Source: Nereocystis luetkeana
Lineage: Eukaryota; Sar; Phaeophyceae; Laminariales; Laminariaceae
DNA: 64,000 nt
Reading direction: 5' to 3'
Assembly: GCA_031213475.1 (NCBI GenBank)
Contig: JARUPZ010000012.1
Span: 7,848,878 to 7,912,877 of the forward strand
Under the pieces are notes generated by a model, which saw only the letters and a list, made by a program, of their open reading frames with translations, did not search any database and was not told where the DNA came from. The first letter of the stretch is position 1, and every line of letters starts with the position of its first letter. The translations under genes and the position numbers were made by a program. Positions 1-63,140 of this stretch are shown here, piece by piece.

Positions 1-550
1 TCCAGAACAACCAGTGCCCGTACCGATTCTCCAACCCTTTAAATAGAGAGATTCAAGCTCTGTGGTCACAAAACTACGATATCATTCTGGAGTCTGGAGT
101 CGACCTCGAGTGGGGAAAAAAAATCAGGAACAGCGGGATGCTGCCATTGCTATTGATAGCTGTCTGTCCTCCCGACGGAGGGTTTGGGTCGAGGCTGCGG
201 AGATTTAGCTCTCTCGCCATGGCGCTTCAATCGTACACCAGGGTACACGGCAAAAAGCACACCAACAGAACGGAGCCCAGAAACGCAGTTGCGGTGGTTC
301 CCACTTGCGCCCCTGGGCGTGCAGCGATGGCGGCGCTGTTCAGCCGCTTGTCGTTTACCTGGTATCCAATAGCTGCCCCGTCGTGTTCTTTTTTGTTTGG
401 TATTTTAAACCCGGGGACACAAAATCTCATGTTTAGCTGAAAACGCCTCACTATATACCACCAGACGCCACGGCGGGGGTTTCTGACATTTCTGTAGGCA
501 CCTTTTTTTTGTTTTTCGTCAAAATTAGAAACTCGCAAGCGCTCGTATTG

Positions 551-785
551 AATGAGTTCATGAAAGCTGCCGCCCTCGTGCAAGTCCGCCTCACAAGCTG
601 TTCTTAGTAGGATGCAGCTCACCCGTCATGCGACTCGCCGAATACCTCACGGCGCTACGCGCTTGGTGCAAGCAAGGTCTGCCTGGTCGGTGAAAACCTG
701 GTGTACTCCGTCCCGGCGTTGTATGAATGCGAGGGTTTATGGCCATACGACTACGACCATGCATGATAATGAGTACACCCCCACC
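551..785 (+). repeat. SINE-P fragment, 5' truncated
   Basis: This is a 3' portion of the common SINE-like family. It runs from the block equivalent to AATGAACTCATTGAAGCTGCC through CTGCCTGGTCGGTGAAAAC to CCATGCATGATAATGAGTACACCCCC. The C tail is short here. Confidence 0.8.
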
Positions 786-3452: not shown

Positions 3453-6400
3453 GTGAGCGGGGTCGGGTCGGGGGTGGGGGTCGTCGTTCGTTGGATTCGG
3501 CTTCGCCCGCGTCCATAGTGATGGTCCTTTTTGTTTCTTTTTTGTTCTAGCCAATCAGGCGCTTTTACTTATTTCCAGCAGCTCAACCAATCAACTCGTA
3601 GGAGGTTTTGCCCTCGACGGCGGGCTTCGGCACAAGCCGTCACCACGGCAGTCGTCCACCCGCTCCGGCACGTAATGTATGTGCCTTCATTTTTATCACG
3701 CATAGGGTTCAGCATTCCCCTCTGCCCGTCGAACTGCATCGAACATTTGTTGTTGGAGGAGGTGGTCGCACGCGTTCTGTGGTTGGTCGCCCTTGAAAAT
3801 GGGGTGGAAGGTGGATTCGGGATTGTTCTTGAGGCTTTGGGTATCGGTCGAGCTTTTCGGGTGATCATGCGCAACGCGCGGTAGAATATACACCTGGTGA
3901 AACGTGATATGTTATACCAGGTATATGTGATGTGCGATGCTTGGTGGCGGTGCTGTGACGGTGTTTATTTGATTGGGCTGCTTTGATTGGCTGATTGGGT
4001 TCTTCGGTGCCCGCGGCTCAAGACCGTCCAGGTCTCTATTAAGGGCCGTTGTTATCCTTATCGGAAAGATTTATTTCCCCAATTTTTTCTATAACTGGAT
4101 TTTTTTTCAAATGGTACCAAGATACGGAGGGCGTTCTGTCGCAAATTGTGATTTTTAACTGACGGAAAAAATTCAGGAAAGTCAAGTTTCATATATTTGG
4201 GAAAACAAAATCAGGAAATCTGGAAGATGAAAAAATTGCGCGAGAAAAAACCGTCACAAACCGGGAAATTCTGGGAAAAAAAAAAGTCCGGTAACGGCGG
4301 CATAACTCGTACTCTCGTTGCCTTCCGATAACCAAAAACAAGTAATACACCCATAAACGACCACGGCATTTTTTACCAGGCAGTGTATATAGTACGAAGT
4401 ATATGTTCTAAATAGTAATACCTACCTGGTATGTGCCAGGTATAATGTTGCTCCCGCAGGATATCCATCGATAGAAGTTATGCACCCGTTGAGGGCGTTT
4501 GTCCTATCGACGCCAAACACCAGCGTTTACTTGTGAAGTGTAGAAATGTTGGGTCGCACGACGGAGGCTAAGGCTCATTCTTGTCAGAGAGCTTTTTTTC
4601 CCAGAATCTCCAAAGTTTGGAAATAATTGGAGATATGTATCAATATACGGAGGCGTTTTGTCACTATTCGTGAAATTCTCCTGAAGCGAGATAATCAGGT
4701 TTGTTAAATTCCACATATTTGGGAAAAAAGCATGAGAATCTGGAAGAAAAAAAAAAGGATCGAAAAAAACATGAAAATACGGGGGGAAAACTCTCAGATA
4801 AAAATGACCCTGACTATGTTGTTTATGGATTTTCTGCAGGACAAATGCAGAACGAGGCGGCCTGCGAAACTCTGGAGAAAGTTCTTGGAAACACCTCCGA
4901 CGACTGCATGGTCAGACACGAGGTGAACAGCGGCCCCGTGTTGCGAGAAGTAGACTAGTGAGTGGAAGCGGTGGAGGGGGGGGGGTACTTGTTGTGACCG
5001 CCGCGATAGACCATGTCTCGTTCCGTATGCTAAATCCGAAGCGCGATAAAAATGGCAAAAGCAGGTACCGGATGGGCAAGACGGGAGGGAGTAAGACGCC
5101 GGTGACCACTGCTTGTCCTGAAGACCGCTGAGGGTATTTAACCCTCCTACCTGGTATGCACGAAGCACGAGTTGAGCTAACGTGAAAATGACGATTAAAC
5201 GCGAATGCTGTTATGGGAAAGGGGTGCAATGTTTTTTCTTCAAAAGTCATGTCGTCAGTGTCTTTACGCACCTCTGTGCGATAGCTCCGACATACGTGCG
5301 ATAATTCCGATATCTGCGGCGGAAAACCGAATTAAATCGTTTGGTTCCAGTGTTTCTCACGCACCACTTCCCCCTGTGCCATGAACTTCGATCTATACGT
5401 GCGATCTATACTCAATAAAATCACAGCGTCTTTTACTGGTACCTGGTATTACTTACGGTGCGTCTCTGTGTGTGTTTTGACATTGAACCGTATCCAGCAC
5501 ATCCAGTGTCCGTGTCGATTCTCCAATCCCAGAAAGGTGCAAGCTGTGTGGTCATTACAAACCACGACACAGAAGAAGAGAAGAATAGATACCGCATTGT
5601 AAGGCAGTAAGCAGAGGGGGCAATGCCATGCCATGTCATCGTACTGGATACGGCAGGCAGGACATACACACGCTATTACGGGAGACCATGGTAAATAGGA
5701 TTTACGGTACACACGAAAACCTATACATTTACCTCTTTTTACCAACAGTACTTGGTCCAATTTACTAGGGTTCCCCGTAATGGCAATCAGGATCCGCGTG
5801 CGTTTAATGTGCCGTTTATATATTCAAAGAAAAACGCCTGCTACGATAGAGAATAGGGGTAGCACTTGACTTCGCCAAGAGATTTCTGACGGACTAGTAT
5901 ATCAGCATACCCCTAAACTGAGGGGTTTCTCATTGAGGCATGCGTTATCGCTTGGATATTATTTGTGTTATTTCGGGTTCGTTTTTCTTTGTTAGTTTTC
6001 TTTTGTTTATCCCATTTAGTGCCGTCGCCCTTTCTTCTTCTCCTCCCCTCCTACTTCAGCAGTCGCCACTCGGATCCGGGGGCCAACATGGCACGCTCTT
6101 CCCCCCCCCCCCCTTTTTGAAGGTGTTAGGTGTCTCTACTAGGAGTAGGAACGGTGCTCCGTCTCGAAAGGGATGCGTGCTCAATGGTCAAATGCCTAAG
6201 CCAAGCAACAAATGAGTACCCCCCCCCCCCTCCCCCCCCCCTCATATATGACCCCCCCCCCCCTCCCCACTACGGTTCGTGCCTTCATTTTTAATCGCGA
6301 CTAGAGTTGAGCCATTTCTTCCCTCGCCGGCCCGCGCCTAATCAAATCAACATGTTTCTGTGAATACTTGAAGCCATCATGGCATTATTTACTCATCGTG

Positions 6401-9400: not shown

Positions 9401-12400
9401 CACAGCAGTGTGGTAGGCGGGGGTACGTTTGGGCCCAAAGTGTTTCGACTGACGGGGGGGGGGGGGGGGGCTCCTCTATTGAGGAACTTCGTACGGTACC
9501 CAGCTCCTTTCCACCGCCAGTTTGTGACTTTACAGCGGTGATACCGCAAATGAGCGTTGAGTTTGATACCGTAAAGAGCGTTGAGTCTTGATACCGCAAA
9601 TGAGCGTTGAGTCTGATACCGTAAATGAGCGTTGAGTCTGATACCGTAAGGTTGAGTCTGACACCGTAAAATAGCGTTGAGCTTGATACCGTAGATGAGC
9701 GTTGAGTCTGATACCATGACTGAGCGTTGAGTCTGATACCGTAAATGAGCGTTGAGTCTGATACCGTAAATGAGCGTTGAGTTTGATACCGTAAAGAGCG
9801 TTGAGTCTTGATACCGCAAATGAGCGTTGAGTTTGATACCGTAAAGAGCGTTGAGTCTGATACCGTAAGGTTGAGTCTGACACCGTAAAATAGCGTTGAG
9901 CTTGATACCGTAAATGAGCGTTGAGTCTGATACCATGACTGAGCGTTGAGTCTGATACCGTAAATGAGCGTTGAGTCTGATACCGTAAAGAGCGCTGAGT
10001 TTGCACAGGGGTTTCGATCGCTTTTTTAGCGCTCGCTTTTTTCAGAACGGGGAAGGTTATCTGCCAATACCGAACCGAATAACGAGGCGTTTTCGGAAAG
10101 ACCCGGTCGAGAGCCGTCCGAAAAGTGTAAGGTTCGACTCTGCAGCAATACGAGCTCCCTCGTTGCCGCTGTTAAGATATAACGAGCGCTTAAAAAAAAA
10201 CACGTTATCATCCCGTGTGCGAACTCAACGGTTTTTTGCGGTATCCGTTGTATACCTAGCCCAGAGGACTGGCTAGCTTACGTCTACCTGCCCCACTGCT
10301 ATGTCAGAGCGTCTACCTCGCTGCTGGTATGTCTATCCCCCAGCTGTACGAGCAGAGTAGAGTCGTGACGGGGATGGTAAGCATGACATGAAAGCACGAT
10401 TGAGATGCGAGAGCGTGGGTTTTTCTCCGGGGACAGCAGGGGTGTGAAGGCAGACGAGTCGCGTATTGCTTCCCGTGCACCACCATGCGCCAGGGAAGCC
10501 GCGATGCCCCCCGCCCCACCCTCCCGGCCGGGTATTATCCCTCTGCTGTATTTTGGCGGTATCTGTCCCCCCACTCTACGACAAAGATGTCAGGAGACGT
10601 GTCAAGCAACGCAAAACGTGCGCTGTCGAGGGTGTAGGGCCTAGGGTTCCACGCTAAAACCTAGTAGTTTGGTGTCAGTCAAGGCATGTCAAGACAAATT
10701 TGCTGTCTGTAAAGGGGTGAAAGTGCTGTCTCCTGTGACATATTTGCTCTACAACAGCGTGTCAACACTCGCCCAAGGTATTTCCTGCCCCCCCCCCCTC
10801 TCTCCCGTTTTTGTGTTTCTGCGGTCGGTTACAGCTGGTGGTCGAGTTGGATAGTTTGTGCGGGATATCACGTACTGTAGTGTTTATGGTAAGGCACCCC
10901 AAGAGGCAGTTACTTAGTACTCCCATCGCTGTCTCTGGAAGTGGCCACACCGGAAAAGAAATGAACTCATTGAAGCTGCCATCCATATGCAAGCCCGTCT
11001 CACGAAGCGCAAGCAATGTCTGCCTGGTCGGTGAAAACCCGACATGCTCCGTCCCGGCATCGTAGGGATGCGAGGGTCTATGGTCATACGACTACGGCCA
11101 TGCATGAGATCGAGTACATATCTCCTATCTCCTATGGAGTGCCCCCCCCCCCCCCCCGCCCCTCCCCCGTCTATGGCCATGCAACTACGGCGAGGCACAA
11201 CATGAGAACCCCCCTTCCCTCCTTCCCGCCGCCTCCTCCTCCCCGCCCCCCTCTCCCCCCCCCCCCCCCCCCCCTCCCCTTTCCCCGCTCCCGGCAGACC
11301 TGCCAGCTAGCGTTGGACTTATTTGCCTGGCGCCGCAAGCAGGGGGCGGATGCTCCCACCCCTCGAGGCAAGGGGGAGACGAACCCGTACCTTTCTGTCG
11401 ACCCTGCCCCCAGCTGTGGCGTGGGAGGCGGGGAAGGGGGAGGGGGGGGGTTGGCGGGCGACGCTACTCCTGAGGAGATGGGGAAGAGGCTTCGTGACCG
11501 GGGCAGGAGCCTTTTCGAGAGATACAGGTGAAGCGCGACGATTCGGGGCTGTGTCCGGAGGCGTTCTACGGTAAAGAGGTTCACCCCAGATTTTCTGAGG
11601 CTCCTCACGTGAGGAGCTCCATACCTCGCCCGAAAACTGACTTTTTTAGCGAAAATCTAATTGCACCCCGATGGATAATCCGGTGGCCCAAGTGTACAAC
11701 TGCTTCATTTTTCGAAAAACAGACTTGACATTCGGACTATTTCGCGTTAAAGGAGCCCCGCCGTTCAGACAAGAAAAAAAAAAATCGGAAATGTGCTACC
11801 TCTATCGTAGAACGCGACATTCGGTTGGTTGTACGTACTCGTAGCCTCCCCCCTCGGCCTGGTCGGTGAAAACTCGAAGGTGCCCCGTCCCGGCATTGTA
11901 GGTATGCGAGGGTCTATGGGCATACGACTACGGCCATGCATGGCGTCGAGTCCTCCCCCCTCCCCCCCCCCCCCCCCAACTTGGTTTGTGTGGAATTGTG
12001 GTGAGCCTTATTACGGGGGACCATAGTTAATACTGAGTAGGACATATGGTATACATAAAAACCTATATATTTATCCGGTTTTACTAACAATATTTGGTCT
12101 TATTAACTTTGGTCCCCTATAATAGTATCACGAGGAAATGTAGTACTCAGGACCAAACATACTCTGTAAAAACAATGTAATATATAGGTTTTTGGGTACA
12201 TGATGGGTCCTGATTTCTATGGTAACATCTTTTTTTTCCCCATCGGCCGGAGAATTAAAATTTATAGGGAATGCGTTGAAAGATCTTTTGTGACCACGAG
12301 AGAGATTTCAGAGACACGAGCTGACTTCAGAACATCGTCATCATCATCATCATCATCATCATCATTATCATTGTCATCGTCCATTGTTTCATTCGGTAGA

Positions 12401-15400
12401 GTCCATATTTCCCCGCTGCGCAATGTATCCCACACTACTTATAAGTGATTTGTACCCCGTAACGGGTGTATTGTATCATCTATACAGTCTTTTTTTCTGC
12501 AACAATTGTTTCACACAACTTTTTCTGAAGTATTTTCCTCCCGGAGCGTGGGTGTACTCGTCCCATTCAGCTAAATTTCCTCGATATTCCTTCGAGCTCT
12601 CTCGGATCTTTCTACCATATTTTTCGGGTCTTTCTACTAGGTACGATTCTCGATCTTTCCTCACGCTTTCTTCGGACTTCTTTCGATTTCACTTATTTTC
12701 TTTCATTTTTTTTTGTCTCGCTCTCTCTTTCTGCATCGCCACCTCCATCTCCATCCCCACCTCCCCCCCCATCTCCACCGCCGGCCGAACCCCCCCTCTA
12801 CACGGTGGCCGCCGCCAGGGCAATGTTTTCTCTCAGAAATCGAGGAGGAGAAGTGTCGGCGCTGGAGCTGGCGTCGGCCTTCCACGACGAAGACAACTCT
12901 CTTTTCAAGCACGAGGTAACCATGTCAAGGGCGATGCCTTTCGTTATAGCACTACATACAGCATAAATCCGCTAGACCAGCCCCTCTGGGACTTGCAGTC
13001 GGCACAAACAAAAGTGTCCAAAGACGCGTTCTATACGATATAGAGACAGCACATTACCGCTAACATATTTTCTGAATGACGGGGTTCCTTCAGCTAGAAT
13101 CGTCGGACTGCCTATCTTGTTTCGAAAAATGTCGATTTTGTATACTTGGGCCATGGGATTATTCATCGGGAGGCAATTAGATTTTTGCTGAAGTCAGTGT
13201 CCGGGTGAGGTATGGAGCTCCTCAAGTGAGAGAGCCTCAGAAAAATCAGGGTGAATCCCTATCGTAGAACGCCTCCGAACGAAGTAGCGATTACAGCATC
13301 CATCCGTGGGCCGCGCGAACGAAGCAGACGTCGGGGGTGCCGAGGAAATGCGTGTTCGAAGTGCACCTGACGGGAGATGGGTGTACATGCAGAACGCGCG
13401 CAGTGTGTTGGTGGTGGTGGTGTTGGTGGTGAGGATGATGCTTGAGCTGTTGTTGCGCGCTGTTCCTGTACAGTTGAGACGAACCGTACTTGCCGCTTCG
13501 TAAGTCGCTATGCCATGGCCAAAAGAGCAAAAAGGGTTACCACTTTGCCAGGTATTACTATTACGGGGGACCATAGTTGATAGGACCAAATATTGTTGAG
13601 TAAAAATGGTCAAATATATAGGTTTTTCATGTATACCACAGGTCCTATTAACGATGGTCCCCCGTGATATTTATGCAAAGAAAAAAGGAACCGAAGTGAG
13701 CAACAGAACCAGCAGTAGGCGAGGCGGGTTCCGGGGAGTAGAGCTTGTACCACTTATTCGAGAAAATGGTTGACGCACATCCCTGTGTACCAGGTATGAG
13801 ACACAGGGGCTAGCCCTTAACCATTGGCTGGTTGGATCTGATTGGCTTGAGGGTCTAGGGTTATACGAAGTACAGCCTTAGTTGTGCTCGTCTCGTACAC
13901 AGCTTGTGTCTAAACCTTTTTGTCGAATAGGTTTCGTAAATCAGGCTGGGCGTGATAGCAACATGAGGCGTTCGGGAGTCGTTGTACTATCGGGGGTGTA
14001 CAACACACGCTTTCCCACTGCACCACAGCCCCTCTCATAAGAATACGCCCCACAAGAAACCCAGCCTCAAATTCCTGGGGAAACGATCAATATCAAACAA
14101 TCACTGCTTTTTATGAGTCGGACTCGGTAAATACGACCATTACATAACCGTACGATAGTTCTAACGAACAGTTTGGAAACAAACATCGGCTCGTAACTAT
14201 ACACCGGGTACGAAGTATATATATTTATGTTTTGTGCTTTTGCTTGGTGTTATTCTTGTTTCTGCTTGCGCTGTTTTTTTCCCCCCCGGTGCCGTCCTTG
14301 TTTTGTTCTCTTTTTATTTAATTATGGATCTGCTTGGTATTGCCATTTATTTGTTGTTATTTCAGTTTTCTTGCTGCTTTGCTTGGTGTAGCCACGCTCT
14401 TACGATTCAGCCCCCCCCCCCCCCCTGTGCGCGTTTGATAGGTGGCCTATGTCCTCGGGCAGATGCAACACCCGGCGACAGTGCCGGCTCTTGGATGCGT
14501 CCTGGCCGACCTCGGCGAGCACCAGATGGTACGGCACGAGGTGAGATTAACGCGGGCGCCTAAAATGTAGGCAAGCGGGTTGCTGATTTACACGGCCGCC
14601 TCAAATTAAGACCCCCCCCCCCCTCCCCTGGCGAAGCAGCCGGAGGTCCGCGCCGTCCGACCTGAAGTTGGAATCGCCGGAAAATATAAAATCGGCGTTT
14701 TTTGTTCGTTCTTGTCTTCGCCTTCTGCTGCTGTAGGCCTTCCACCGGCGCGCACGGTGTTGTTAATGCCCGACGACAGTTTCCCAAAAACAAAGTGTGC
14801 CACTGGGTGGGCATTTGTAGTAAGAATCAGAAACCACGATAGACTCTAAAAACCATCTATCCCTTTATGTTTGCTCACCACGTTTAGTTTTAATTACTAT
14901 TACGGGGGACCATAGTAAATAGGCCAAAATATTGTCAGTAAAAATAGGTAAAACATACCTAGTAGAGGTTTTTGTGTGTACCGTAGGTCCTATTTACTAT
15001 GGCCCCCGGTAATACAAGGTATTAGCTTGTTCCTCCCGTAGTCTGAAGAAAGGCAAAAAAAAAAAAACGAAGCTGTCAGATCGTTTTTTTTTCGTCTCTT
15101 CTTTTTTTAAGACTCGCCTTTGCAAGCTTGCTTGGTGTGGTGATTTCGATCACGCGCTCTGCGGGTTGTTTAGATTTCTCCCATGGTTTTGCTTGTGTCC
15201 GCCGCGGGGAACGGGCAGGCTTTTCAACGTGTGTGGTGAATTATTTATCAAATGCGCGCGCGTACGCTTTCGGGGCTTTCTGGCATGCGTGGAGGCGTTC
15301 TACGATAGAGGTTCACCCTGGATTGTCTGAGGCTCCTCACTTAAGGAGCTCCATACTTCATCCGAAAACTGACTGCAACGAAAACCAAAATGCATCGCCG

Positions 15401-21297: not shown

Positions 21298-22455
21298 CGG
21301 TAGTGGAACAGCAACAACAGCAGGCAGGTGGCGGTCTGCCCGCTCGAGAGCTTGGCGGAGGGTTTCGACTACTCTGGTCTGGCCGCTAATACAGTTGCCG
21401 TTTGGACTCTGATACGAATATTAAATACTCTTAAGAGCTTATATTTCTTGACCATAGGGGGTATGTATGCCCGTGTTTTTTTTTTCTGTTGTGTAGGCGT
21501 TGAAGCGGCAGGAAGTTCGCACGTAGTTGTTGGAAACTAAAAGCTGCAGGCAGTGTTTCGTTGGCAGCCGCGCAGCCAAGTACTCATCGGGAGACCCACC
21601 TCTGCTGTACATAGATGGGCCTTGAATGAAAGGAGCTTGGGGTATAAATACGCAGACCAAACGAAGGCACCCTCCATGTCCGTCCGAAGCGATAAGCTGC
21701 AGGCGGTGTCGCTGGGAGCTCGTGTGGTAAGCTCTGCCGACAGCTAGTTGTTGGAAGCTTTAGCTGCAGGCAGCAAATGTGCTACGAAAAATTCGGGAGG
21801 GGGGGGGGCAAAAACAAATACCTGGTACCATTTTTACAGCAACCCCCACTGCGTGATTAGGGGGGTAAACACAATGGTTGGTGCCCTGGTGACAGTGCAA
21901 TGAGTCGTATGGAACAGGCGCAACCTGATCCTGTGATACCTCCTATCTGTACTGCTGCTAGCTGGGGAGGTGACGCTGCTCGTACATAGCCGATTGGTTT
22001 CACCAAAATGGTCGTTGTTTCGGTCGGTATCTCGGGGTTGAGGCCCAAGGGGTCCATAGGGTGGCCGGTCTTTTCGGGCAACTCAGGGCTCTCTTCTGGC
22101 CTTGCTGTAATGATGTCAGTGCGCGGGCGGGGCGGCCAGTCGAAGGGGGCCGAACCGCAGTCTCCTATCATTTGGCGTGGTTGATTCGTAGTAGTAACTG
22201 CTGTTGGAAAGCTGCTGGAGCACTTGCTGGAGCTTCGGGGCTACGGCAGTGAGCCAGCTGCAGGCGCTGTTGTAGGCTGCTGCAGCGGTTGGCAGGCGTG
22301 GGGGTGGTGGTTCAGTAGGTGGCGTTTCCGCCGCCTCTGCTTTGACTCGACGCCGTGCTGGCTGCAATAACCCCGTCAGAAATGAGCCGACATGTTAAAC
22401 TACTTGGCACTATTAATAGTGTGGGACAGCTTTCGCAGCAGTCAAAAGGGTCACC

Positions 22456-24963: not shown

Positions 24964-25245
24964 ACACACTGACATGGGGGCAGCTATCAGCTACGTACAG
25001 CAGTGACTGGAGGATTCTCCTCTCAATAAACCTCATCTTTGATTTTCGTTATTATGCTCTCCAACTCTAAAAGGGCTTCGAATATGCGCCTGCGTGCATT
25101 CAGGTCCCACCGCCGTCACGATTCCCCACACCCACTACTACTAATAGTTGAAACTATCCATATACATGCATGTAACTGAGTTTGAACATCAGCCAGGCAT
25201 CTCGCTTTCCCGAGGGCTCAAGAATGTAAATTCCAGTACTACTAC

Positions 25246-25354
25246 TATTACGGGGGGCCATAGTTAACAGGACCAAATATTGTTAGTAAAAATGGTGAAA
25301 TATATAGGTGTTTATGTATACCATAGGTCCTATTAACTGTGGTCCCCCGTAATA
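25246..25354 (+). mobile_element. MITE-A copy
   Basis: The termini are TATTACGGGGGGCCATAGTT and TGTGGTCCCCCGTAATA, with an intact forward interior. It lies 625 bp upstream of the ACADSB start. Confidence 0.85.
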
Positions 25355-40492: not shown

Positions 40493-43400
40493 ACTGGTGC
40501 TGGTGCTGCTGCTGGTGTTGGTGCTGGTGCTGGTGCCGCTACTGCCGCTGCTGCCGCTGCTGCTGCTACTGCTGCTACTGCTGCTTCTGCTGCTGCTGCT
40601 GCTGCTGACCTGACACCACCTTCGACTGGGCTGCCACCGACGGTGCGACGTGCTGGCAGGGAGAGAAACAGTGGATTTCTAACGCCAAGGAGGCGGACAT
40701 TTTCTTCGTTTTTGCGAATGCCGACCCCTCCAAGGGGTACAAGGGCATCACTTGCTTCGTCGTCGAAAAAGGTGAGCGCTGCTGCTGATGCTGCTGCTGC
40801 TGCATACGATAGGGTTGGGTCTACTGCAGTCGTTCTGAGGCTCCTCGCATGAAGAGCGCTACACGTATTGGCCCGCGAAAAATATATATATATATATACC
40901 TGGTATATATCAGTATTAGCAAGGCTCAGAATATTATTGTGACACCGTCCCTTGATTGAACAGCCTTGAGCTATGCGGATGTTGTGTACCCTGGAAGGAT
41001 TTAGTGTGCTGAGCACGACTTCTTTCATCCATTTTTCTGAGCTTTTCCCTCCCGAAAAAGTGAACCTTATACACCTCGGACACATCATCGACAGATCATC
41101 GACATATCATTCCCACTTGATGATCTAGATCCTTCCGGGCAGATAGATCTATCTGTGCCCGATCTCTGTACATACGAGTTAGCTCATGTTGCCGGGTGGG
41201 GACCCGTATGGTCCGCATGATCTTTGTAATACATGTTTCCTGCTGGGTTGGATCTATATGCACAACCTCTCTCCCAACGGCGGGTGAGGAACTAGATCAT
41301 CTATTTGTAGACAGATGATATAGGTCATGATATATCTGTACGAGCTGTGGGGCATTATGTTGTTACTAATAGTAGGTTACCCTCTTGCTCGTGTTACTAA
41401 TAGTAGGGGTATGTTCGTTTATAAAGGATAGACCACTGAGCTACTCAGTCAGCGCTGACTTTTCCCTTCCTATAGTCCCCCTCCCTAGTCGTGAGTTCTT
41501 TTACTCAAGTGGTTCACTCCACTTTCGACTCTCTGGTCGAGTGTTCTTTTATCGTGGTTCTCTCCACCCGACTTACCTTTTTCTACCCACGGCAGAAAAA
41601 GCGGAAATACGACGTCTGGCGGGACTCGAACCCCGGACTTAACGAACAGGTTACCCAACAAACCGATGCTGAGAAAGAAACGCGTACCGCTCTCTCGGCG
41701 AAAATGTGAGGACCGCTTGGTCTTCATATTTACGCCACAACGGTCCTTACATTTCCTGGACACAGTGGTGGTACGCGCAACCCGATAAGAAAATTTCCAT
41801 GGGCTACTCGTAGGCATATTACGAAATATATATTTGCACATATATATAATGGTACAAGGTTCCCCTTCGGGATGTGGTTGACTTGGAATCCCGGGGGGGT
41901 GTCGGATTTTGAAACGGGGGGAAACAAAAAGCAAAGGCGTTCCCCCTGTGCAAATGAGCGCATGAGCCGGCACTGCAAGGTTCGCTGCTGCTGGTGTACA
42001 GCTGCTGTGAGACTGTTGTTTTGTGCCGCTGCTGTGAGACTGCTGTCTGTTCCGCTGCTGCTAGACTGGTGTTCTGGGGAGATGCTTTTGAAATTCAACG
42101 GAAGCGTTCCGAGGATGAGCTGCTGCTGCTGCTGCTGCGGGGTTGCCGAGACTGTACGTATGCGATGTGGCTCGACTTGGCAGCCGAACCGAATAAATGT
42201 CCCCAAATCAACAGAGAAACGTTCAGAAAATGGACCCACAGCAGATTTCCCGAAGCAGAACCAATTGCACTGCTGTTTGTGAGATATTTCCATGTGTCGT
42301 CCTCGAACACCACACACATAAGAGCGCCTTGGCACGAAGAAAGGAGCTCCAAGCGTGACTGCTGTTGCCTACGAGGAGAGCCGGGGTGGGAGGTTGGAAA
42401 GGGCGACCACACTCGAGATGTGAAGTGGCCAGGCGATCAGGCGAGGCGCCGGCTGTTACATGTGCACACCACAGGAACTTGCGAGACCCTGATGCGGTCC
42501 ATCTTGTTCGTTGGGGTTCCATCGTCGTCCTGCTTGGCTTTAGCATGTCGGAATGGCTCCCCGTGATTGCTAGCCAGAGTTCGCGACTTTGAAGGCCCAG
42601 GGCACGCGCCACGGATCCCAGCCGGGACCTGTATTTGCACCGTGGTGTACACCCCCCCCCCTACGTGCCATGCAGCCGAGAGCGCGAGAGAAGGCCGGCG
42701 GCCCGAAGGGAAAAGCTTTGTCCCCCCCCCCTCCCCCCAAAGTATATTTCGTACATAGACATACACGTAAAAAAACTGGGGTAAATCTTCAGTCGAGGAG
42801 CCGTGCTAGTCAGCTAGAAAATGTTTGGGCCCTTAAGAACCTCCTCTACCGCACTATAGAGGCATGTTTCTGTAGTCAGCCAGAAAACGTTTGGGCCTTT
42901 AAGAACCTCTACCGCACTGTAGACGCATGTTTCCGTAGTCAGCTAGAAAACGTATGGGTCCTTAAGAACCTCCTCTACCGCGCTGTAGACGCATGTTTCT
43001 GTAGTCAGTCAGAAAAGAAACGTTTGGACCCCAAAGTACCTCCTTTACCGCTCTGTAGACGCATGTTTCTGTAGTTCGAGCAAGCCCCCCCCCCCCTCTC
43101 TCGCGCTTGGTGCGAGCAATGCCTGCCTGGTCGGTGAAAGCCCGACGTGCTCCTTCCCGGCATTATAGGGACGCGAGGTGCGACGCTCTTATATTCGTAC
43201 AACTACGGCCATGCATGGCATGAGTACAGCCCCCCCCCCCACCCCCCGCCGTTGATAATATCACAGCGCCGTCGATTTCCAGAGGTCGGAAATCCGGAAT
43301 CTTGACGCGAAGCAAAGGCCCTGGAAAACCGGTCTTCGTGGGGAGGGTCAAGGCCTCTTTAGGCCCAAATATTCAAATATACTAGTTTCAGTGTACGGGG

Positions 43401-46400
43401 GCGGTCAGTCAAGGGGCCAAACTGCGGTCTCCTGGCGTTGTTGGCGTGAAGGGTGCTCCGTCGATCGAAAGAAACTCGATCGATGATGATGGCGGCTCTT
43501 GAGACGACCGACGGTCGCCTAGGGGTACTCGCGGTGCAGTTGCGCAAGAACTGCCGTTGATGACTGATATTGATAGCTGAGAAGCGTCTCCGTAACTGCC
43601 GTAACAGTCGCTTTTCCACACTCGAAGCGTTTGTTGCCGATGTTTGTCGAGGATCAGCAGCGTTTTGCCTGCCGTCGAGGGTTAACTTTGCGGTGGAGAG
43701 GCCTTTCTGCCACTGCCGAGAATCGCATAAATATTACCTGGTAGAGAACAGCGACTGCCGCCAAGGTGACCATGACCAACTTCACCACCCCCACCACTAC
43801 CGCCACCACCAAACCTAACGCTAGCGCTAACGCCAGCTACCATCAACACCAACACCAACACCACAGGTGCTCCAAAAACACAAACACAAACACCAACACC
43901 ACCACAACCATCAACACCGCCACCACCAACACCATGAACACCACCACCACCGCCAGCATCAACAAACTAACACCCCCATATAGCCCAGCAATGGACCCCA
44001 ACCCCCCACCCTCCTAAACACCAACAACACCAACACCACCACTCACCACCCTCGCCAACACCATCATCACCACCACCGCCACCACCACTATCACCCCCCC
44101 CACCACTGCCTGGTCGGTGAAAACCCGACGTGCCCCGTCTCGGCATTGTAGTAATGCGAGGGTCTATGGTCATACGACTAAGGCCAGGCATGATATCGAG
44201 TGCACTCCCCCCACCCCTCCCCATTATCACCACCACCCTCACGACGCCCGCCAACACCACCACAGCTATCCCTACTACCACCATCACTAACCCCCACACC
44301 AACATCACCACCACCGACCCAACCTAAACCACCAACCTATGACCGCGCTTGCTTGCTTCCTTTTTGTGTTCGTATGATACTCCGCCCCGCGGTGCAGGGT
44401 TCGGGGGGGTTCACGTCGGCCCGAAGGAAGACAAGCTCGGCATCCGAGCTTCCTCCACTTGTCCCGTTACGTTCAGCGACTGCGAGGTTTCTAGGGAGAA
44501 CATCCTTGGAGAAGTGAGCGCATTAAATAGGTGGTTACGCTTTAAAATAATTTATTATGCCTGCTCTGTTCTGTTCTGCTGTGCACTGTTCTGTTATGTT
44601 CTGTTCTGTTTCTTTCCATTCCATCGTTCCGCCCCCCGCCCATCGTCCCGCCCCCCGTACCTCTCACGCACCGCACCGAAAATGCACACCCCACCGCGCC
44701 TCTTACCTCCATCCGTGCGACAAAACCAAACCCAATACAACCTAAACCCGAGAACCAAATCCACACCAAAATCAAAACCACATATCAAAGACCTAGCAAA
44801 ATAAAATAAAACGAAACGTCCATGGCGCCGGTGGTGGTGATATCGTGATGATGTAGAGGTCGGACAAGGCGGTACGCGATCGAGGTACTTGAGTGTTTGC
44901 AATAATCCGCTTTGGTTGGGTTATTGAAACAATTGAAACCAACAAACTTGAGCTGGTTGGTTAACAACTGAATCAGAAGCTGCTCGGTTTTCTAACCAAC
45001 CCAAGAATACTTACAGTAGGTTAAAAAACGTCACTTTGGTCACGTTTCTCCATGGCAATTCATTTTTCATGGGTTGGGCTTGCCAGTATATACCAGGTCC
45101 AGGTACCTGGTAAGAAACAGACTACAAGAAACCCAACCCAACCAAATTATTTGCAAATACCCTGTTGCACGAGGGCTGCATTAGGGCCGGTGCGCAGATG
45201 GTTGTTATCTCGAAAGGGTGTCCGGCAGCCACCCAAACCAAACCAAAACCGAAAACCAAAAACGAACAGCATGAAGCGAAAAAATGAAAGTCAAAAAAAA
45301 AAGAAAAAAAAAAAAGATACAGCCTCCAAACCTAATCGAAGAACGATACAGACCTGGTACGTACGTTGAAAAAAAACGAAAGAGAAAACTCAAAAAACTC
45401 AAAACCAAAGAGCCAACGCCAAAGCCGGAACGCCGTTCATTACTTACGATGGTTGTGGGGATGATGATAGGTACGATCGAGTGTCGAAGTGGCATCGGTG
45501 CGCAAATGGTTGGTTGGATTGACATCGATGCACGTACTCTTGCATACTGAAGCAAAACAAGCATACACACAAACGAAAAACGAAAAACTAACAAGAAAGC
45601 CAGCAACCAACAACCAAACACCGAAAACGTAAAAAATAAAAGCAAGCGAAAACCCAAAGTTAAACCCAGAAGAAATAACAAATAAAACCAAAACCGAAGA
45701 AAACCCCAGCAAATCGGAATCAACTTGACTATACAGAACAAAACGAGATAAAACTGAAAAGAAAAACTAAAAGCCATAGCCAAAACGCCATCCACCGACT
45801 GCGATGGTTGTCATGATGATGATAGGTAGGACAAGGCTACCGGTACGCTATCGAGATATTGAACGAGGGTCGCATCGGCATCGGTGCGCAAATGGTTGGC
45901 CTCTCGAAAGGCTGTCTGGATGCCACTGCTCCCTACCTGTTCGAGCGAAAGCAGTTCGGCGAGCTGGTAGGGGACTTCCAGGGCATGCAACACCAACTCG
46001 CTCAGGTTTCCACGGAGATCGAGGCGGCAACGTGAGCGGGGCGCGCGCGCGCGGCGGGGGGGGGGGGGCGTACTCATTTGTTGCTTGCCTTAGTCATCTG
46101 ACCATTGACCAAGCATCCCTTTCGAGACCGGGCACCGTTTTTACTCCTAATAGAGACACCTCCAACATTTGGGCGCTCATTACGTTGTTTCCATGGGAGG
46201 GGGGGGGGGTTGTTGATGGTGATGTGGGTGGTTGTTGGTGTTGGCGGTGTTGGTGGTGCGAGCACTGGTTGTGTTGGTGTTGGTGGTGTTGGTGGTCGTT
46301 GTGGTGGTTTAGGTTGGCGGTGTTGTTGGAGTTGGTGGTAGTGGTGGCGGTGGTGGTGGTGCTAGGGTTGGTGGTATTGATGTCAATGTTGTTGCTGCTG

Positions 46401-51639: not shown

Positions 51640-52370
51640 ACAGATTAAAAAAAGAGGGTACGTGCCGAATAATTCCTCGGGTGAGGAGCGCTCCGTAAAA
51701 CCGGGAGCATACTCGCCCGAAGAGTGTGGTACTAGCAACGTTTCTGTCGTAACCCCCCGGTCGCTCGCTTTGTGTGTGGTCGATGATGTGGTTAGCACAC
51801 GCCATTTTTTTTTTCTTTAGCACGTTTTCCCCCTGAAATCACAAAGTGGTTGGCATACATACGGTATATGGGCCCGCTAACAAGAAACACCTAATCTGGG
51901 CAAAGCCTGTGAGATTCTTAATCGGGGCGCCATCTTCGTACAACCTTGAGCATGGGCTATTGGGTACCTGGTAGGGTTTGGTGTAGAGTTCTCACACCAC
52001 GGAGCCGTTTCTCTCGACCCAATTTTCTCAGCGTTCTCCAAAAAGTGAGCGTTGTGTTCTTGTTGGGCACTCTCTGATTGGCGGGCGTACGCTGTACTGG
52101 TATACGAGTTTCGTGTTGCACGCTGACTTGTTCAGCAACCACTCATACAGGGTGTTGGTACCATGTGTGTGCGCCAACTTCAAGTAGTTTGCGATGCCCC
52201 GTCACGTTAACTCGTCAAAGGATCATCCTTTTCTTTTTTGTCGATGGCGTCCGGAGAGAGAGAGAGAGAGAGAGAGGGAGGGAGAAAGTGTTCCTCGAAT
52301 GCACGAGCGAGCGCCCCGTGCTTTGCCTCCCCTCTCGCTCCTCGGCCTCTCGCGCCGAAAACGAGACTGC
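51640..52370. other. Intergenic stretch, nothing recognised
   Basis: No exon is seen. An (AG)n run lies at 52255-52279. Confidence 0.4.
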
Positions 52371-54590: not shown

Positions 54591-54596
54591 AGGGGT

Positions 54597-55272: not shown

Positions 55273-55279
55273 ATCACTT

Positions 55280-56265: not shown

Positions 56266-56325
56266 CCCCATCCCAGCCGCCGTGGACAGCCGGCTACAAC
56301 CCACAGCCTCCCTAGGCCGGTGATT

Positions 56326-56435: not shown

Positions 56436-59400
56436 CTAGTAAAAATGACAAACACAAGAGCGAACAAGAACCGAAATCAAGCGGCGGGGTTACCGTATCT
56501 CACGAAACGAAGAGCATCAACCATTCAGTCGGTCGAACTCACAGCTGACGTACTTGCATTAACTTCATAAAACGGCAAACTGAGCACCCGGTCTTAACTA
56601 CTGCACCGTAAGCCGAACGCACAAACACCCCAAGACCTTTTACGAATGCAGGAGCTCCAGGCGGACTGTCGCTCAGAGCCCGTTTCAAACCGCGAACACG
56701 TTTTTTTGGGACAAAAAAATGAGCTCACAAATCGGACAGATCGTCCCGACAGATCACTTGCAGTTCATTATCTAGATCTTCCAGGGAGCCTAGATTTCCT
56801 GATCTGTGTGATCTAGCTCATGCTGCCGGGGCGGGAGCCGTATTTTCTGCAGGGTCTAGGACGTGTTTCTTGGTTTGAAACCCGTACTATACATGCAGGT
56901 CCTGTACAGCATCCCATAACGGCAGGAGAGGATCTACATGATCTGTCAGTGGATTACATATCTGTACATGATCTGTCCAACGTGAGAACTGCTTGGAGGT
57001 ACTCTAGTGCGATATCACTTTGGCAGTTTCAAAGGGCGCCCGGCGTAGTGGGCAGCCCCACATAGCCGCGCTACGCATGCACCCACGGCCGCATGGAGTG
57101 GGCAAAAACGGAGGACGGGGTAAGCGGCAGACACGGGCACCATCTCGTCCGAGATTGGAAAAAACTCCGGACGCCGGCATCGTACTGTGATGGTATTCGG
57201 AAGGGCTAGGAACTGGTAGCTCTAGACATGAGACTTCAGCAACCAGGAACCTGGATCCGACCGGGATTTCGGCCGCGGCGCCCCCGGAGGGCCCCGCTAA
57301 AGGCGCCCTAACGGAGGCCCGTTTTTACGCGTTTTGGCTTCACCACGAGCTAAAACATGCGTATAACTTTTGGGCCGGTTGTGGGACAAGGCCCAACAGG
57401 CACCAACGCACAACCCCATCCGACCTGTGCTCGGGGGGGGGGGGGGCGGATACCCCACGCAACTCGCGGTTCTCGCGCCCGCCTTCGACGCGATGTGGCA
57501 AGGTGGCGGGCAGATACCATACACCCCCCACCCATGTATACGGGGCGGTCGGGGGGAACAATCCGATAGGGGTAAGGGGTACTACGGCACACACGGAGGC
57601 AGGGGCTACGGAGGATTTGCTCGTGGACGGGGGCGGGGGTGGGGGGTGTACTCGATAGGAGGTATGTACTCGATCTCATGCATGGCCGTAGTCGTATGAC
57701 CATAGACCCTCGCGTCCCCACGAACAATGCCGGGACGGAGCATGTCCGGTTTTCACCGACCAGGCGGACATTGCTTGATTGCACCAAGCGCGAAGAGCCG
57801 TGAGGTGTCCGACGAGTCGCATGGAGGGTGGGGGGAGGGGGGGGGGGGGGGGGTCCCAGGCGAAGAGGGGGGGGCAGGCCCGTCTGCAGCAAGTGCACGT
57901 AGAGTGCCACCATTCCTGCACGACCTCATCCGACTCGTCGGGGGACGGCGGGTAGCACATATCCAACCCAGGAAACATGCCCTCGATGATGCACATCAGG
58001 TGGCTCCCAACGTGAGATAGATCATACACATCATACATATCATACAGATCATACAGATCAAATCTGCCCTGAAATGTATACATCAAAAGTGGGAGTCGTT
58101 GAAAGAACACCAGGTGCCACAAGTGCAACCGCTTGGCTCATATTGGCACTACCTGCTGTATTTCAACCTGAGTACATAAATCTGCAAGCCGAGGATTTCT
58201 CGTGTGTGTTCTGTGGTTTTGTGGGTGTGTGTGCTATACTTTCTGACTAGGAGGAAGTCCGTTGGTGAGTACCTCTGGGAAAGCTCAGAAGTTTACAGAC
58301 TGAAAGAAGGTATCGAACCCTCTCATCTGAAAAGCTCTGATCGGAAAGGAAGGCCTCTGTAATAGCACAGTAAACAGTTGACGGTCTAGACGGTCCAGGT
58401 TTGACCCGTCAAAGCCCCTTGCGATTATTAATCAACATCATAGTTTTAGTGTCACGAGTTCCTTGGCGGCCCCTTGTGACTTAATACACTCGTTTGGGTG
58501 TGAGTACTTCCTTGACGGCAAGGGTCACTTCCGATCAATTAAGCCTCCTTTCGACGTACTGTACTATTACGGGGGACTATTAACAGTTAATAGGACTAAA
58601 TGTTGTTGGTAAAAATGGTTAAATATATGGGTTTTTATATGTGCCATAGGTCCTATTAACTATGGTCCCCCGTAATACTGTAGTTTTAGTTTGAGGAGCT
58701 CCTTGACGGCCGTCCGACAATGGCCAGTCTTCACATGTCAAAGACCCCCTTTTCGGTCCAATGTACTATTCACAGTTGTGATGTGAGGGTTTCCTTGACG
58801 GCCACCCGTCAAGGGCAAAGAATGGCGTCAACCGACATCTTCGCTGCACAGCGGCCGCCGACGGAGCCATCCCGACGCGTTCGACCGGCGTGGTTCGCTT
58901 TCCTTCGAAACCCACCGACTTACCACGTCGCTTTTTTTTTTTTTTTGCGTACGTGTACGCAAGCTTCCACCGTCTGCCTCCTCCCACGACCGCAACACTT
59001 GCCTCTGAATCGCGCAAGCAGGTGGGCCTATGCGTACCACGACCCCTGCCGTATAATATTCGTAAGCCTAAAAAACAACCGGTGTGATATCGAGGATATG
59101 TGTACGTACCAGGTATCATACACCAGGTACAGAAGAAATGAGGGAGGTTCCCTTGGGGCGATTAATATATCTGCCATACATAGAGGACGAACACCTCAAC
59201 AACATCTTACGCACCTCAACAACATCTTACGACAACCAAAAACCCAGATGGCCCCTACGCCCCAATTTTCTACTCCTGACTTCTACCGTAACCCTTGTGG
59301 GACATAACGTCAGCGGGAGAATTGAAACGGGTGTCGCTACGTACGCACAGCATTAGCCTCACGAAGCCAGCCCGGGCTGCCGCTGAGATAGGGAGGGGAC

Positions 59401-62400
59401 AGGGGACGTGTCCGGAATACAACGACAGGAGGTGCGCAGCATGTCAAATCGACAAAATACAGGGCGTCATCGGTCGCACGGCTCCTGCGTACCTATTGTA
59501 GACGGCCGGTAAGGCGTAAGACCGCTCCTGACACTTTTTTTTTTTTTTGGTCAATACGATTACGTCTACCTGGGTCCCATCTACATACCGCTCTGGGCGA
59601 AAATACAAGGAGCGTCTGGTCTTCATGTTAATACCCCAACGCTCCCTATATTTCCGGCCGGAGTAGCGCAACACATACCTGGTATGTACGAACCCTAGCC
59701 CCTCACACCTCGAACAGATCATCCACAGATCATCCACAGATCACCTACAGATCATCTACAGATCACTCACTCTTCATCGTGTAGATATTTCAGGGGCAGA
59801 TATATTCCTGATCTGTTTGATCTAGATCCTGTTGCCGGGTGGGAGCCGTACAAAATCTGGACGACCTTCGCATATAGGACGCGTTTTCTTGGTTGCATCT
59901 ATACTTCATACAGATCCTGCACAGAATCTCGCGACTGCGTGGATGATCTACAGAACAGCAGTAGATCGCAATCTGCCTGAAGTAGGTAGGTACAACCAAC
60001 TTTCGGGGCCGCTGGAAACGCGGAACAAGTCTAATCTACCGCAGTGAGGTAAAAGGAAAAGTAAAATCTCAAGTACCACTCTCCCCCGAAACAGAAGGAA
60101 AACTTTGGGTGCTAACCCTTTTAGGGCTGCAGTCCCGTTTTGGGGACAAACTACTTAGAATTTGAGAGCTTTGTCCCCAAAACGGGACTGCAGTTCGAAA
60201 GGTACTGACATCACACCCAAAACGTTTACCGTATTACGGGACATAGTGGTATAACAGTTATACCTGGTACTACGTTGCTCCCAACTGCAACACGTGGACG
60301 CAGTTTTCCACGCACGATGAGATAGACTCGCTGAGGGTGTGCGTGGGTGACTGCTGTCTTGTAGTCTACGTACTGCCACTACTGTGGTCGGTAGGGAACA
60401 TCCTGGGTATAAGACGCAGCTACCTGCTGTAATCAATACAAGACGCTTCGCGTAGCGGGCGGTTCCGCCCGCACCGCCCGCAACGCTCGCTCACGAGGAA
60501 GAATGGAACGTAACAGACGGTCTAAACAGCTACCAAGGGTAGGTGCGCACAGGCGACTTGCAAATGCCAAAAGCGTTAAGCATGCTCCATCCAGGAAAAC
60601 AACCTGAACGCCGCATGCATGTGCGTACGTACATGCTTCCTTTTTTATTTTGATATGCACGAAAGAGAAAACACAGTACGGCACAGCACCGCCAGAACAA
60701 CGAAAATGAAGAACGAAATTCTTGAAAAAAAGCCTTCCTATCTCTTCTGATGTAATCATTTCCTGCCTCATTGGAACACCTTGCGCCGGTAAAAAAACAA
60801 ACAAAGAGCAGAGCCTCTCTTGGCCTCGTACGATGCCCGCCCTCCTCGTGACCACCTCGCCACCGATTCGGTCTGAGTGAAGCTTTCCTCCCTCTCTGCC
60901 ACAGTGAGCCCCGTCGCCCGCCTCGCGTGAGCCTGGTGCTCACCGTGGCCCCCGCTCGCAAGCTCGACAATGTTGGCGTTCAGACTGCGGAGCTCTCTCT
61001 GTGAACTCCAGCTTGGTCGCAAAAGTAAGCACCGCTTGAATTTTATTTTGCACACCAAAACGACCCTTAATATACTCGTACATAATATATCTAACCTCAC
61101 ACCAGGAGGCCAGACAGAGCCCGTTCATGCTTCCCTCGTGTTTCGAGGCACACACGACACCTAGCCACGAAAACGGCGACCGCGCTCCGTCCAACCCCCC
61201 CTCTACCCGCCAGCGCCCGCTAACACTCGCGACGGCGCCGGCCTCGCCCGCGGTGCCGTGGTGTTTGAACGCGCACGTACACAAAACAGATCGAGAAAAA
61301 AGGGAAAAAGAAAAAATCAGGGCTTTTCGATAGTCAGGTCAAGCCTCACGGGTCGGGTCGGGTCGGGCTGGGTCAGCTGACCCGACCCGACGCGCGAAAA
61401 TTTTGAGGTGCGTTGACTTGGCCCGGCCCGACCCGCGAGATTTTGAAACCCTCGTGACCCGACCCGACCCAACCCGTGATATAACAAAAACTGCTGACCT
61501 GACCCGACTCGACCCGTGAGATTCGAAAATCTCCTGACCCGACTCGACCCCACCCGCGAGATTTAAAAACCTCCTGACCCGACCCGACCCCACCCGCGAG
61601 ATTTGAAAACCTCCTGACCCGACCCGATACGACCCGCCACCTTCCGATTGACCCGTGAGACACAGGTTTCATGCGGGTCGGGTCACCTCGACCCGCGGAT
61701 CCCGCACGTGGTTCGACACTTCAAAAACAATTACCTGGTAAATACTAACATTTGTGCCCCGCAGCGATATGTGGCCTGGCTGTAGTGGGTATGGATGGAT
61801 GCGGGCACGCGTATATGGATTTGGCGATGTTTTAATGTTTGAACATTTTATGATACCAAAGGATTCAAGTGTCGGATCCACGAGCCTGAAGCACGGGTGC
61901 GACCCGCGGGTAAGCAAAAAACAACTCGCGGCTCGTGCTGGCCCGACCCACGAGTGACCCGTTTCTCGCGGGTCATGACCTGACCCGATTCGTGAGCTTT
62001 TCATCACCTCTTGACCCGACCTGACCCGACCCGTGAAAATTAAAAATATTCTCGACCCGACCCGACCCGACCCGTGAGATTTGAAGAACTATTGACCCGA
62101 CCTGACCCGACCCGCGAGATTTGAAAATAGTTTGACCCGGCCCGACCCGACCCGTGAGATTTTGAAAACTTCCTGACCCGACCCGACCCGATCCGACCCG
62201 TGACATTTTGAACACCCCGTGACCCGACCCGCGGGTCGGGTCATGACCCGCGAAAAGTCCTGGAAAAAAGGCTCTCGCCGGCAAGTAAAATAAATAATAG
62301 TAGTAGGAGCAGTGCAGAGACACGACGGTAATAAGTATCTGGGTACATGCACGCACACAAACCACAGTAAGAAAACAAAAAAAAGGGCTCTCGCCGGTAG

Positions 62401-63140
62401 GTACTGTAGTAGAAGGAGGCGGTGTCCAAGTGGGAGCTCTGAGATGCCAGGCTGAGGATATTATCTTAGTACGTGTAATAAGAGCCAGCAAAACAACTAT
62501 TATTAATACCAGGTATTACTAAAGTCTCCGCCAGGTTGTTGTCTACGGGTTCTCCAAAGAGTGTCCGGACACAGTTTGTAAGCACCGAGCTCGAGGTCAG
62601 TACTAACGTATGGATAGGTGCATACAGGTTCGCTGTTTAGTTGTTGCTGTTCTCGCGAGACAGAGCCCAGTCCCAGGTCCAGGAGCCAAAATGGTGTATA
62701 TCTCCCAACACACCCTGCTGCTCTGCTGCATCCATCAGAGATTACATACGAACTCGTACAGGCTTTGATGGAAAGAGGGTACGTGCACAACAACAGCACA
62801 TACGTACAGCAGTAGTCGAACAACGACACGCCATGTATTTCGCGCTCGCACCCCTCCTCTCACCTCCGTCACACAGTGCGACCGGGCCATCCACCCAAAC
62901 CACTGGTACCTCCGCTATTTTGGCCTCAGCATCGCTTCGGTGAGCTCCGTACTCGTACACCGACTTCGAACGCTCCTTAGAGAATAACGAGTGTGTCTGC
63001 TGCTGGCTCCCCGTGATGCCCCTTGCTTGTCGGGCAACCGTAGCTAGGCCGGGGCGTAACGCCGTCGCACCGCTCTGAGGAGCGATCCTCCCCGCTATTT
63101 TCCCAAGTAAGTTTTTAGCAGCTGGTACCCGAACCATCAT
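56326..63140 (-). CDS. NDUFS6: NADH dehydrogenase iron-sulfur protein 6 (complex I 13-kDa subunit)
   Basis: NDUFS6 is a zinc-binding accessory subunit of the peripheral arm of mitochondrial complex I, needed for late assembly. Exon 1 is 63140-62864 and exon 2 is 56435-56326, joined in phase 1 (donor GGAG^GTGAGA, acceptor TTTTTACTAG). The 128-residue product is close to human (124). The N-terminus, MMVRVPAAKNLLGKIAGRIA, is Arg/Lys-rich and lacks acids, as in a presequence. Then come AEAKIAEVPVVWVDGPVALC and the zf-CHCC core CDGGGGALGHP, with YIQL and C-Q-Y-C near the end. The four zinc ligands (C, H, C, C) are all present. An in-frame ATG at 63221 would add 27 residues rich in Ser/Pro and acids. 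I prefer 63140 because the presequence starts cleanly there. The two exons lie 6.4 kb apart, and the split codon rebuilds the invariant GGGGALGHP exactly. Confidence 0.93.
56735..56995 (+). repeat. GATC-rich dispersed repeat in NDUFS6 intron
   Basis: GGACAGATCGTCCCGACAGA, TTATCTAGATCTTCCAGG, CATGCTGCCGGGGCGGGAGCC, GTCCTGTACAGCATCCC, ACATGATCTGTCCAACGTGAG. Confidence 0.65.
57000..57620. other. NDUFS6 intron stretch, unclassified, GC-rich
   Basis: No repeat family I can name and no exon. A G run lies at 57434-57446. Confidence 0.4.
57622..57855 (-). repeat. SINE-P copy bounded by G runs
   Basis: TGTACTCGATAGGAGGTATG, CATGCATGGCCGTAGTCG, TTTTCACCGACCAGGCGGAC, CGAGTCGCATGGAGGGTG, then a long G run. 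C/G tracts flank both ends. Confidence 0.8.
57940..58100 (-). repeat. GATC-rich dispersed repeat
   Basis: CATATCCAACCCAGGAAACATG, then several ATCATACAGATC units and AAATCTGCCCTGAAATG. Same orientation as 29780. Confidence 0.65.
58105..58560. other. NDUFS6 intron stretch, nothing recognised
   Basis: The phrase TAGTTTTAGTGTCACGAGTTCC (58441) has echoes at 58682 and 58770 (ACTCGTTTGGGTGTGAG, GAGGAGCTCCTTGACGGCC), a weak repeat around the MITE that follows. Confidence 0.35.
58565..58677 (+). mobile_element. MITE-A copy
   Basis: TATTACGGGGGACTATTAAC to TATGGTCCCCCGTAATA, with a small rearrangement after the left end (CTATTAACAGTTAATAGG). Forward interior. Confidence 0.83.
58680..59700. other. 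NDUFS6 intron stretch
   Basis: Contains CACCTCAACAACATCTTACG twice in tandem (59191, 59212), a TACCAGGTA at 59107 and a 65-bp palindromic repeat (59598-59672: GAAAATACAAGGAGCG, CTGGTCTTCATGTTAATAC, CGCTCCCTATATTTCC). No exon. Confidence 0.45.
59704..59990 (+). repeat. GATC-rich dispersed repeat
   Basis: CACCTCGAACAGATCATCC, five ACAGATCA units, TGATCTAGATCCTGTTGCC, GGGTGGGAGCCGTAC, CAGATCCTGCACAGAATC. Confidence 0.68.
60112..60204. mobile_element. MITE-C copy
   Basis: CTAACCCTTTTAGGGCTGCAG, GGGGACAAACTACTTAGAAT, CCCCAAAACGGGACTGCAG. Confidence 0.82.
60428..61320 (-). mobile_element. Hairpin-ended repeat, copy 2
   Basis: On the minus strand it ends GCGGGCGGAACCGCCCGC (hairpin), then TACGCGAAGCGTCTTGTATT. 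The body matches 33440-34494 (CACCGATTCGGTCTGAGTG, CTCGTGTTTCGAGGCACACA, AACCCCCCCTCTACCCGCCA). The shared CTTGTA end defines the boundary. Confidence 0.6.
61330..61720. repeat. GACCC satellite, block 1
   Basis: Units of about 54 bp: GACCCGACCCGACCCGTGAG, ATTTGAAAACCTCCT. The left edge is inverted (GGGTCGGGTCGGGTCGGGCT), so the block starts with a large palindrome. Confidence 0.88.
61721..61889. other. Spacer between satellite blocks
   Basis: A unique 170-bp segment with TACCTGGTA at 61732. Confidence 0.4.
61890..62262. repeat. GACCC satellite, block 2
   Basis: The same unit as block 1. It ends in GACCCGCGGGTCGGGTCATG, again inverted. Confidence 0.88.
62864..63140 (-). CDS. NDUFS6: NDUFS6 exon 1: presequence and first zinc Cys
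   Basis: This exon of 92 codons plus one base encodes the presequence, then HRSDAEAKIAEVPVVWVDGP and VALCDG. In the family, I-A-E-x-P-x-x-V-x-G-x-x-x-x-C-D-G is the conserved lead-in to the zinc site. Confidence 0.93.

Follow-up and report, generated by a model that had tools for sequence, protein, structure and literature searches.

Copies of TACCWGGTA in a brown algal genome as probable excision scars of a TA-targeting transposon

As described in the available portions of the literature, Tc1/mariner elements cut with overhangs of 2-3 nt (PMC3878927, PMC2170065) and leave footprints of 2-4 bp (PMC7913693), those of Passer being 0-4 bp (PMC9976928). Sleeping Beauty and Frog Prince duplicate TA, and the short palindrome that they leave, C(A/T)GTA, has A/T at its centre (PMC3878927); a palindromic AT-rich target preference has been described for mariner/Tc1, these two elements included (PMC5481204, PMC7913693). 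In grasses, Osmar5 and Stowaway leave TIR fragments of 1-4 bp beside each TA; these TA-bounded scars, which lie in an intron and were recognised via allele comparison, include putative ones that total 5-6 bp (PMC1925063). Among brown algae, Ectocarpus carries 17 Mariner-Tc1 families, with mostly non-autonomous copies, according to the available text of a paper in whose main text the words footprint and excision are absent, and which describes other brown algae as lacking detailed analyses of their transposable element landscapes (PMC12477816).

Here we describe a 9-bp palindrome, TACCWGGTA, dispersed through a 64-kb stretch of the genome of Nereocystis luetkeana (hereafter the window). Its copies resemble the Sleeping Beauty and Frog Prince scars in the duplicated TA, the short palindrome with a central A/T and the palindromic AT-rich target preference, but they carry the 5-bp CCWGG in place of the 3-bp CWG and, unlike those scars, number 182,395 in one genome, the presumptive element being known from scars alone. 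Their target bias peaks at +7, whereas ZB and SB are described, in the portions available, with ATATATAT around TA. They are also TA-bounded and partly intronic, like the scars of Stowaway and Osmar5; there, however, the available text describes several different scars at one locus, with 2-4 bp at one end and 1-2 bp at the other, whereas here a uniform 5-bp palindrome occurs genome-wide. Besides TA, the uniform 5 bp exceed the 2-4 bp given for Tc1/mariner and fall within the 5-6 bp of putative Stowaway scars, so that, on these partial sources, five lies at the long end and the oddity is rather that there is one uniform palindromic 5-bp scar. Among the titles listed in a literature search on motif and scar, none reports a TACCWGGTA scar.

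Abundance and genomic setting of the palindrome

All 27 exact copies that the original prediction had reported in the window, against about 0.5 predicted, lie where it placed them, and dinucleotide-preserving shuffles of the 64 kb (n=100) gave a mean of 0.50 copies and a maximum of 3, which rules out chance or composition as the origin of the motif. Among the odd 9-bp palindromes of the window TACCWGGTA is the sole outlier, the runner-up having 9 copies, and the spacing of the 27 copies is random (dispersion p 0.24-0.67). The excess extends to the whole assembly, where 182,395 copies were counted in 465,085,209 bases (1,987 contigs) against 1,744 of the reversed control pattern, about 100 times the control and far from expectation; the density is one per 2.55 kb in the genome and one per 2.37 kb in the window. 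Among the matches listed, 238 loci selected for two motif copies within 30 bases were examined and none had more than four separated clusters, from which we draw nothing.

Two genes with long introns were mapped in the window. The exon matches of a deoxyhypusine hydroxylase (DOHH) gene lie between 3347 and 20683, with best named relatives in Ectocarpus (73% over 81% of the joined exons), Ascophyllum, Scytosiphon and Pylaiella, and an acyl-CoA dehydrogenase (ACAD) gene extends from 31103 to about 50470, its best named relative being that of Discosporangium (63%). Part of the ACAD exon at 45826-46023 is echoed at 45150-45221, as if by a decayed partial duplicate. In the window, Rfam at the gathering threshold gave no matches and ARAGORN with the bacterial code found no tRNA; a scan of viral_contigs with two repeats of the window gave no match. 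Eleven of the 27 copies are intronic (6 in DOHH, 5 in ACAD) and none falls in the 17 mapped exons; the earlier statement that the motif is never exonic thus holds as a count, but is uninformative, since only 0.87 copies are expected in these 2,058 bases and P(0)=0.41. The exact copies, strand-neutral, are as follows.

356..364, TACCTGGTA, upstream of the first mapped DOHH exon
3915..3923, TACCAGGTA, DOHH intron
4423..4431, TACCTGGTA, DOHH intron; near copies at 4374 and 4434
5148..5156, TACCTGGTA, DOHH intron; in a repeat common to 27180
5440..5448, TACCTGGTA, DOHH intron
13788..13796, TACCAGGTA, DOHH intron
19904..19912, TACCAGGTA inside a MITE copy, DOHH intron; eight empty paralogues in the window and two in L241 and L246
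20901..20909, TACCTGGTA
21819..21827, TACCTGGTA
24282..24290, TACCTGGTA
26178..26186, TACCAGGTA
27180..27188, TACCTGGTA; paralogue 5148 also occupied, third copy equivocal
27772..27780, TACCTGGTA
28968..28976, TACCAGGTA; TA-bounded inverted pair with 29091, 13/14 bases
29091..29099, TACCTGGTA; TA-bounded inverted pair with 28968
30723..30731, TACCAGGTA at the end of a repeat copy; ambiguous against window copies, L241:1501 being a clean insertion in the same family and TA
32035..32043, TACCAGGTA, ACAD intron; empty paralogue at 14813-14899
32127..32135, TACCAGGTA, ACAD intron
40897..40905, TACCTGGTA in a TA run, ACAD intron
43735..43743, TACCTGGTA, ACAD intron
45104..45112, TACCTGGTA, ACAD intron; near copy at 45091
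51965..51973, TACCTGGTA
59107..59115, TACCAGGTA; near copy at 59121
59676..59684, TACCTGGTA
60261..60269, TACCTGGTA
61732..61740, TACCTGGTA
62507..62515, TACCAGGTA

Insertion at TA and its interpretation

Comparison with empty paralogues showed that the motif arrived by a 7-bp insertion at TA (TA to TA-CCWGG-TA) at three sites: 19904, 32035 and L241:1501. The MITE copy at 19845-19985 reads AAAACC-TACCAGG-TATAT where other copies read AAAACC-TATAT, and when the flanks of 19904 are joined without the scar, eight window copies in direct orientation align with them, showing no more than one gap close to the junction (one of the eight has CA for TA); two further empty copies are found in L241 and L246. 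Site 32035 has one empty paralogue. At L241:1501 the scar sits at the TA of a repeat of which nine aligned rows lack the motif (five in the window, three in L241 and one in L240); 30723 occupies the equal TA position, although taken alone it allows a gapless alignment. L240:1501 and L246:1501 favour insertion more weakly, owing to a poor right flank or a tandem-repeat setting. Sites 5148 and 27180 are scarred copies of one repeat, of which a third copy (3540-3680) may be empty, although its best alignment has no clean gap and the case is equivocal. The related sites are listed below.

14956..14964, decayed scar (TACCTAGTA on the plus strand), at a neighbouring TA in another copy (14886-15027) of the MITE of 19904
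14813..14899, minus strand, empty paralogue of 32035
25241..25354, 2561-2672, 13558-13664, 58564-58677 and 31702-31794, minus strand, empty MITE paralogues of 19904
12009-12125, 26863-26973 and 5673-5781, plus strand, empty MITE paralogues of 19904
10873..10879, 3-nt scar of the Sleeping Beauty type (TACWGTA; here TACAGTA), a 5-bp insertion relative to the copy at 7950-8095

In these comparisons, only alignments that are gapless at the junction count as clean. Within the window a junction-crossing paralogue was found for 4 of the 27 sites and not for the other 23; 79 of 220 control TA-N5-TA sites had a junction-crossing match under a loose criterion that does not discriminate, the strict count covering motif sites only. 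A survey of the window's self-alignments that was blind to the motif and took in gaps of 4-30 bases (66 positions) picked out TACCAGG at 19904, a 7-bp insertion that duplicates TA. It also listed two insertions of this length, at 12031 and 49814, which have other sequences and likewise duplicate TA.

The MITE is about 110 bp long with a TIR near TATTACGGGGGACCATAGTTAATA, ten copies having been aligned (including 2561-2672, 13558-13664, 19856-19971 and 25241-25354). In one of its copies TA has become TACTGAGTA at 12031-12039, a second 5-bp TA-bounded scar and odd palindrome, which is the reverse complement of TACTCAGTA; the putative Stowaway scars of 5-6 bp include TACTC...AGTA in the available text (PMC1925063). 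At 49811-49822, TACTCCGTA is a 7-bp TA-duplicating insertion relative to a paralogue. TAGGWCCTA (7 copies) was considered as a second scar type and rejected, being internal to the MITE.

We consider it likely, with good though not full confidence, that each TACCWGGTA is the repair scar of a departed TA-targeting cut-and-paste transposon that left 5 bp. Insertion of such an element would have duplicated TA; empty sites have one TA and scars two, a duplication read from scars rather than from a resident element. Its inverted ends would start with CCAGG or CCTGG beside the duplicated TA, and excision would have cut at the 3' ends of the element and, at its 5' ends, five bases further in, giving five-base 3' overhangs. 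These TIR-derived overhangs, CCAGG or CCTGG on both sides, may then have annealed via their outer CC/GG and been sealed. The original prediction had already interpreted the motif as an excision footprint: its insertion component, 7 bp at TA, stands at three loci, while the excision origin is probable and the 5-nt 3' overhang and the A:A repair are putative. The alternation of A and T at the centre, which it had taken as evidence of mismatch repair, loses that meaning, since an invariant CCAGG gives the same picture when it can be inserted both ways round; the data are strand-symmetric, CCAGG reads as W either way, and A:A mismatch repair is thus unreadable here.

A direct targeted micro-insertion of 5 bp plus TA, by faulty repair or aborted integration and mostly with no full element ever resident, would also account for a highly uniform scar and for a window with neither donor nor remnant, and the comparison of empty and scarred sites cannot separate one step from two. 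The palindromic CC..GG between duplicated TAs is, however, what annealed TIR overhangs predict, and a scar of the Sleeping Beauty type also occurs, at 10873, in the repeat family of 30723 and L241:1501 and at their TA, so that we regard micro-insertion as unlikely. We know of no enzyme that performs such a targeted insertion of TA and 5 bp.

Target choice, nested copies and decay

The description of the flanks as unrelated proved nearly right, except for the repeat shared by 5148 and 27180 and for a symmetric A/T preference at +7. Counted outward from TA on both sides, +7 is A/T in 48/54 arms, where all TA sites together predict 27.6 (p=4.6e-9, or about 2e-7 after correction, +7 being the best of 45 positions), with 26/27 right and 22/27 left arms. 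The preference recurs in six other loci (19/22 arms, p=6e-4), and in 14/16 arms when L243, where the base is fixed by neighbouring or nested scars, is left out; in the near copies it is weak for those of transition type (18/28 arms) and absent for those of transversion type (6/16). A symmetric A/T at +7 is what an enzyme complex with two-fold symmetry would be expected to choose. The ATATATAT core was not seen at motif sites, positions 1 and 2 having no significant A/T excess.

Among the first 100 genome-wide places listed, all on one contig (C1), inspection by eye revealed eight pairs (16 places) at a spacing of 7, TACCWGGTACCWGGTA, where about 0.04 pairs are expected from density. The two centres agree in five pairs and differ in three, and simple duplication of a unit therefore cannot account for all of them. 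These pairs look as if a second visit had used a TA that an earlier scar provided; within a scar two TAs lie five bases apart, which meets the +7 preference. Among the 27 window copies there are no pairs at this spacing, where the rate on C1 predicts about two.

Allowing up to one mismatch, 52 places were found in the window against a shuffle total of 10.87, so that there are 25 near copies, not the roughly 15 one-base variants first reported. Three of these (17442, 19106 and 38153) belong to one repeat family and are left out of the decay counts. The remaining one-mismatch neighbours comprise 14 transitions (3.3 expected), 7 transversions (7.1) and 1 central change (0.5); because the excess consists exclusively of transitions, the motif appears to decay as under neutral ageing. 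An excess of about 10.7 on 27 exact copies with eight fixed bases suggests a mean divergence of about 5%. The form TACCGGTA, with five copies against 0.87 expected (3344, 28174, 38732, 45838 and 46773), could represent scars minus the central base. TAC[CG]GTA occurs 33 times in the window, 21 of them outside a tandem array, against about 6 expected. A tandem array at 9539-10000 has about 19 copies of TGATACCGTAAATGAGCGTTGAGTC, each about 25 bp long. At 45091-45112, TACCAGGTCCAGGTACCTGGTA resembles a decayed triple scar.

This pattern of decay bears on the idea that the motif is a functional palindromic site for protein binding or DNA modification, selected or spread as such. It is a perfect palindrome in very high copy number, 11 of 27 copies lie in introns of two genes, and the CCWGG core resembles a methylation site; yet the near copies decay through transitions (14 vs 3.3, with transversions at 7 vs 7.1), the spacing is random and a clean 7-bp insertion was demonstrated, which together make a functional site very improbable. 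Least probable of all is copying of the motif within longer ordinary repeats, which can hold for single pairs such as 5148 and 27180 (one repeat, motif in both) and is contradicted as a general account, and with it a single repeat family for all copies, by the otherwise unrelated flanks of the 27 and by the motif-free copies of motif-bearing repeats, as the original claim that the copies form no single family had it.

A candidate lineage and the donor search

Returning to excision as the preferred origin, we give roughly even chances to a more specific proposal: that one TA-targeting lineage with a five-base staggered cut, which exceeds the 2-3 nt described for Tc1/mariner overhangs, left about 180,000 excision scars in the germline and thereby about 1.3 Mb of extra DNA, that its own copies are rare or gone, and that scars served as new targets, giving nested series. 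On the excision reading itself some 180,000 departures would have accumulated and decayed neutrally, with the donors rare, gone or unrecognised. Judging from the scars alone, the candidate donor would act like a Tc1/mariner element. The TACAGTA at 10873, which shares the repeat TA of 30723 and L241:1501, and TACTGAGTA at 12031, which on the opposite strand agrees with a published scar of Stowaway type, suggest that other TA-targeting elements left their marks as well.

Genome surveys count resident elements, and excision is largely invisible to them. A 9-bp palindrome every 2.55 kb would be a countable and datable record of departures, from which the number of hops per resident element, the choice of targets and the decay of scars could be measured in one assembly. 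If the proposal is true, the 5-nt stagger would widen the range of cutting geometries described for transposases that target TA, and the history of the lineage would be recorded by its scars and not by its elements.

No donor was recognised in the 64-kb window. Besides the 27 copies the window has 22 half sites, and a search of it for paired CCWGG termini whose inner sequences match well found none; the best inner match of all pairs is 10/14, in the A/T-rich flanks of two scars. A Pfam search of 20 of the 350 open segments of the window identified no transposase. TA-bounded inverted pairs number 93 in the window and the motif takes part in two, 19904-21827 (12/14) and 28960-29107 (13/14), the latter a 148-bp TA-bounded stretch with two complete scars in its inverted ends that adjoins CTGC(A/T)G, a common repeat here. 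Because each pair consists of two complete scars and the second lies near the common CTGC(A/T)G, both are read as chance pairs, the second being worth a look.

The scar expected from full fill-in, TACCWGGCCWGGTA, is absent from the window. At 35633-35644 lies CCTGGCCAGGTA, which is near the product that filling both overhangs before joining would give.
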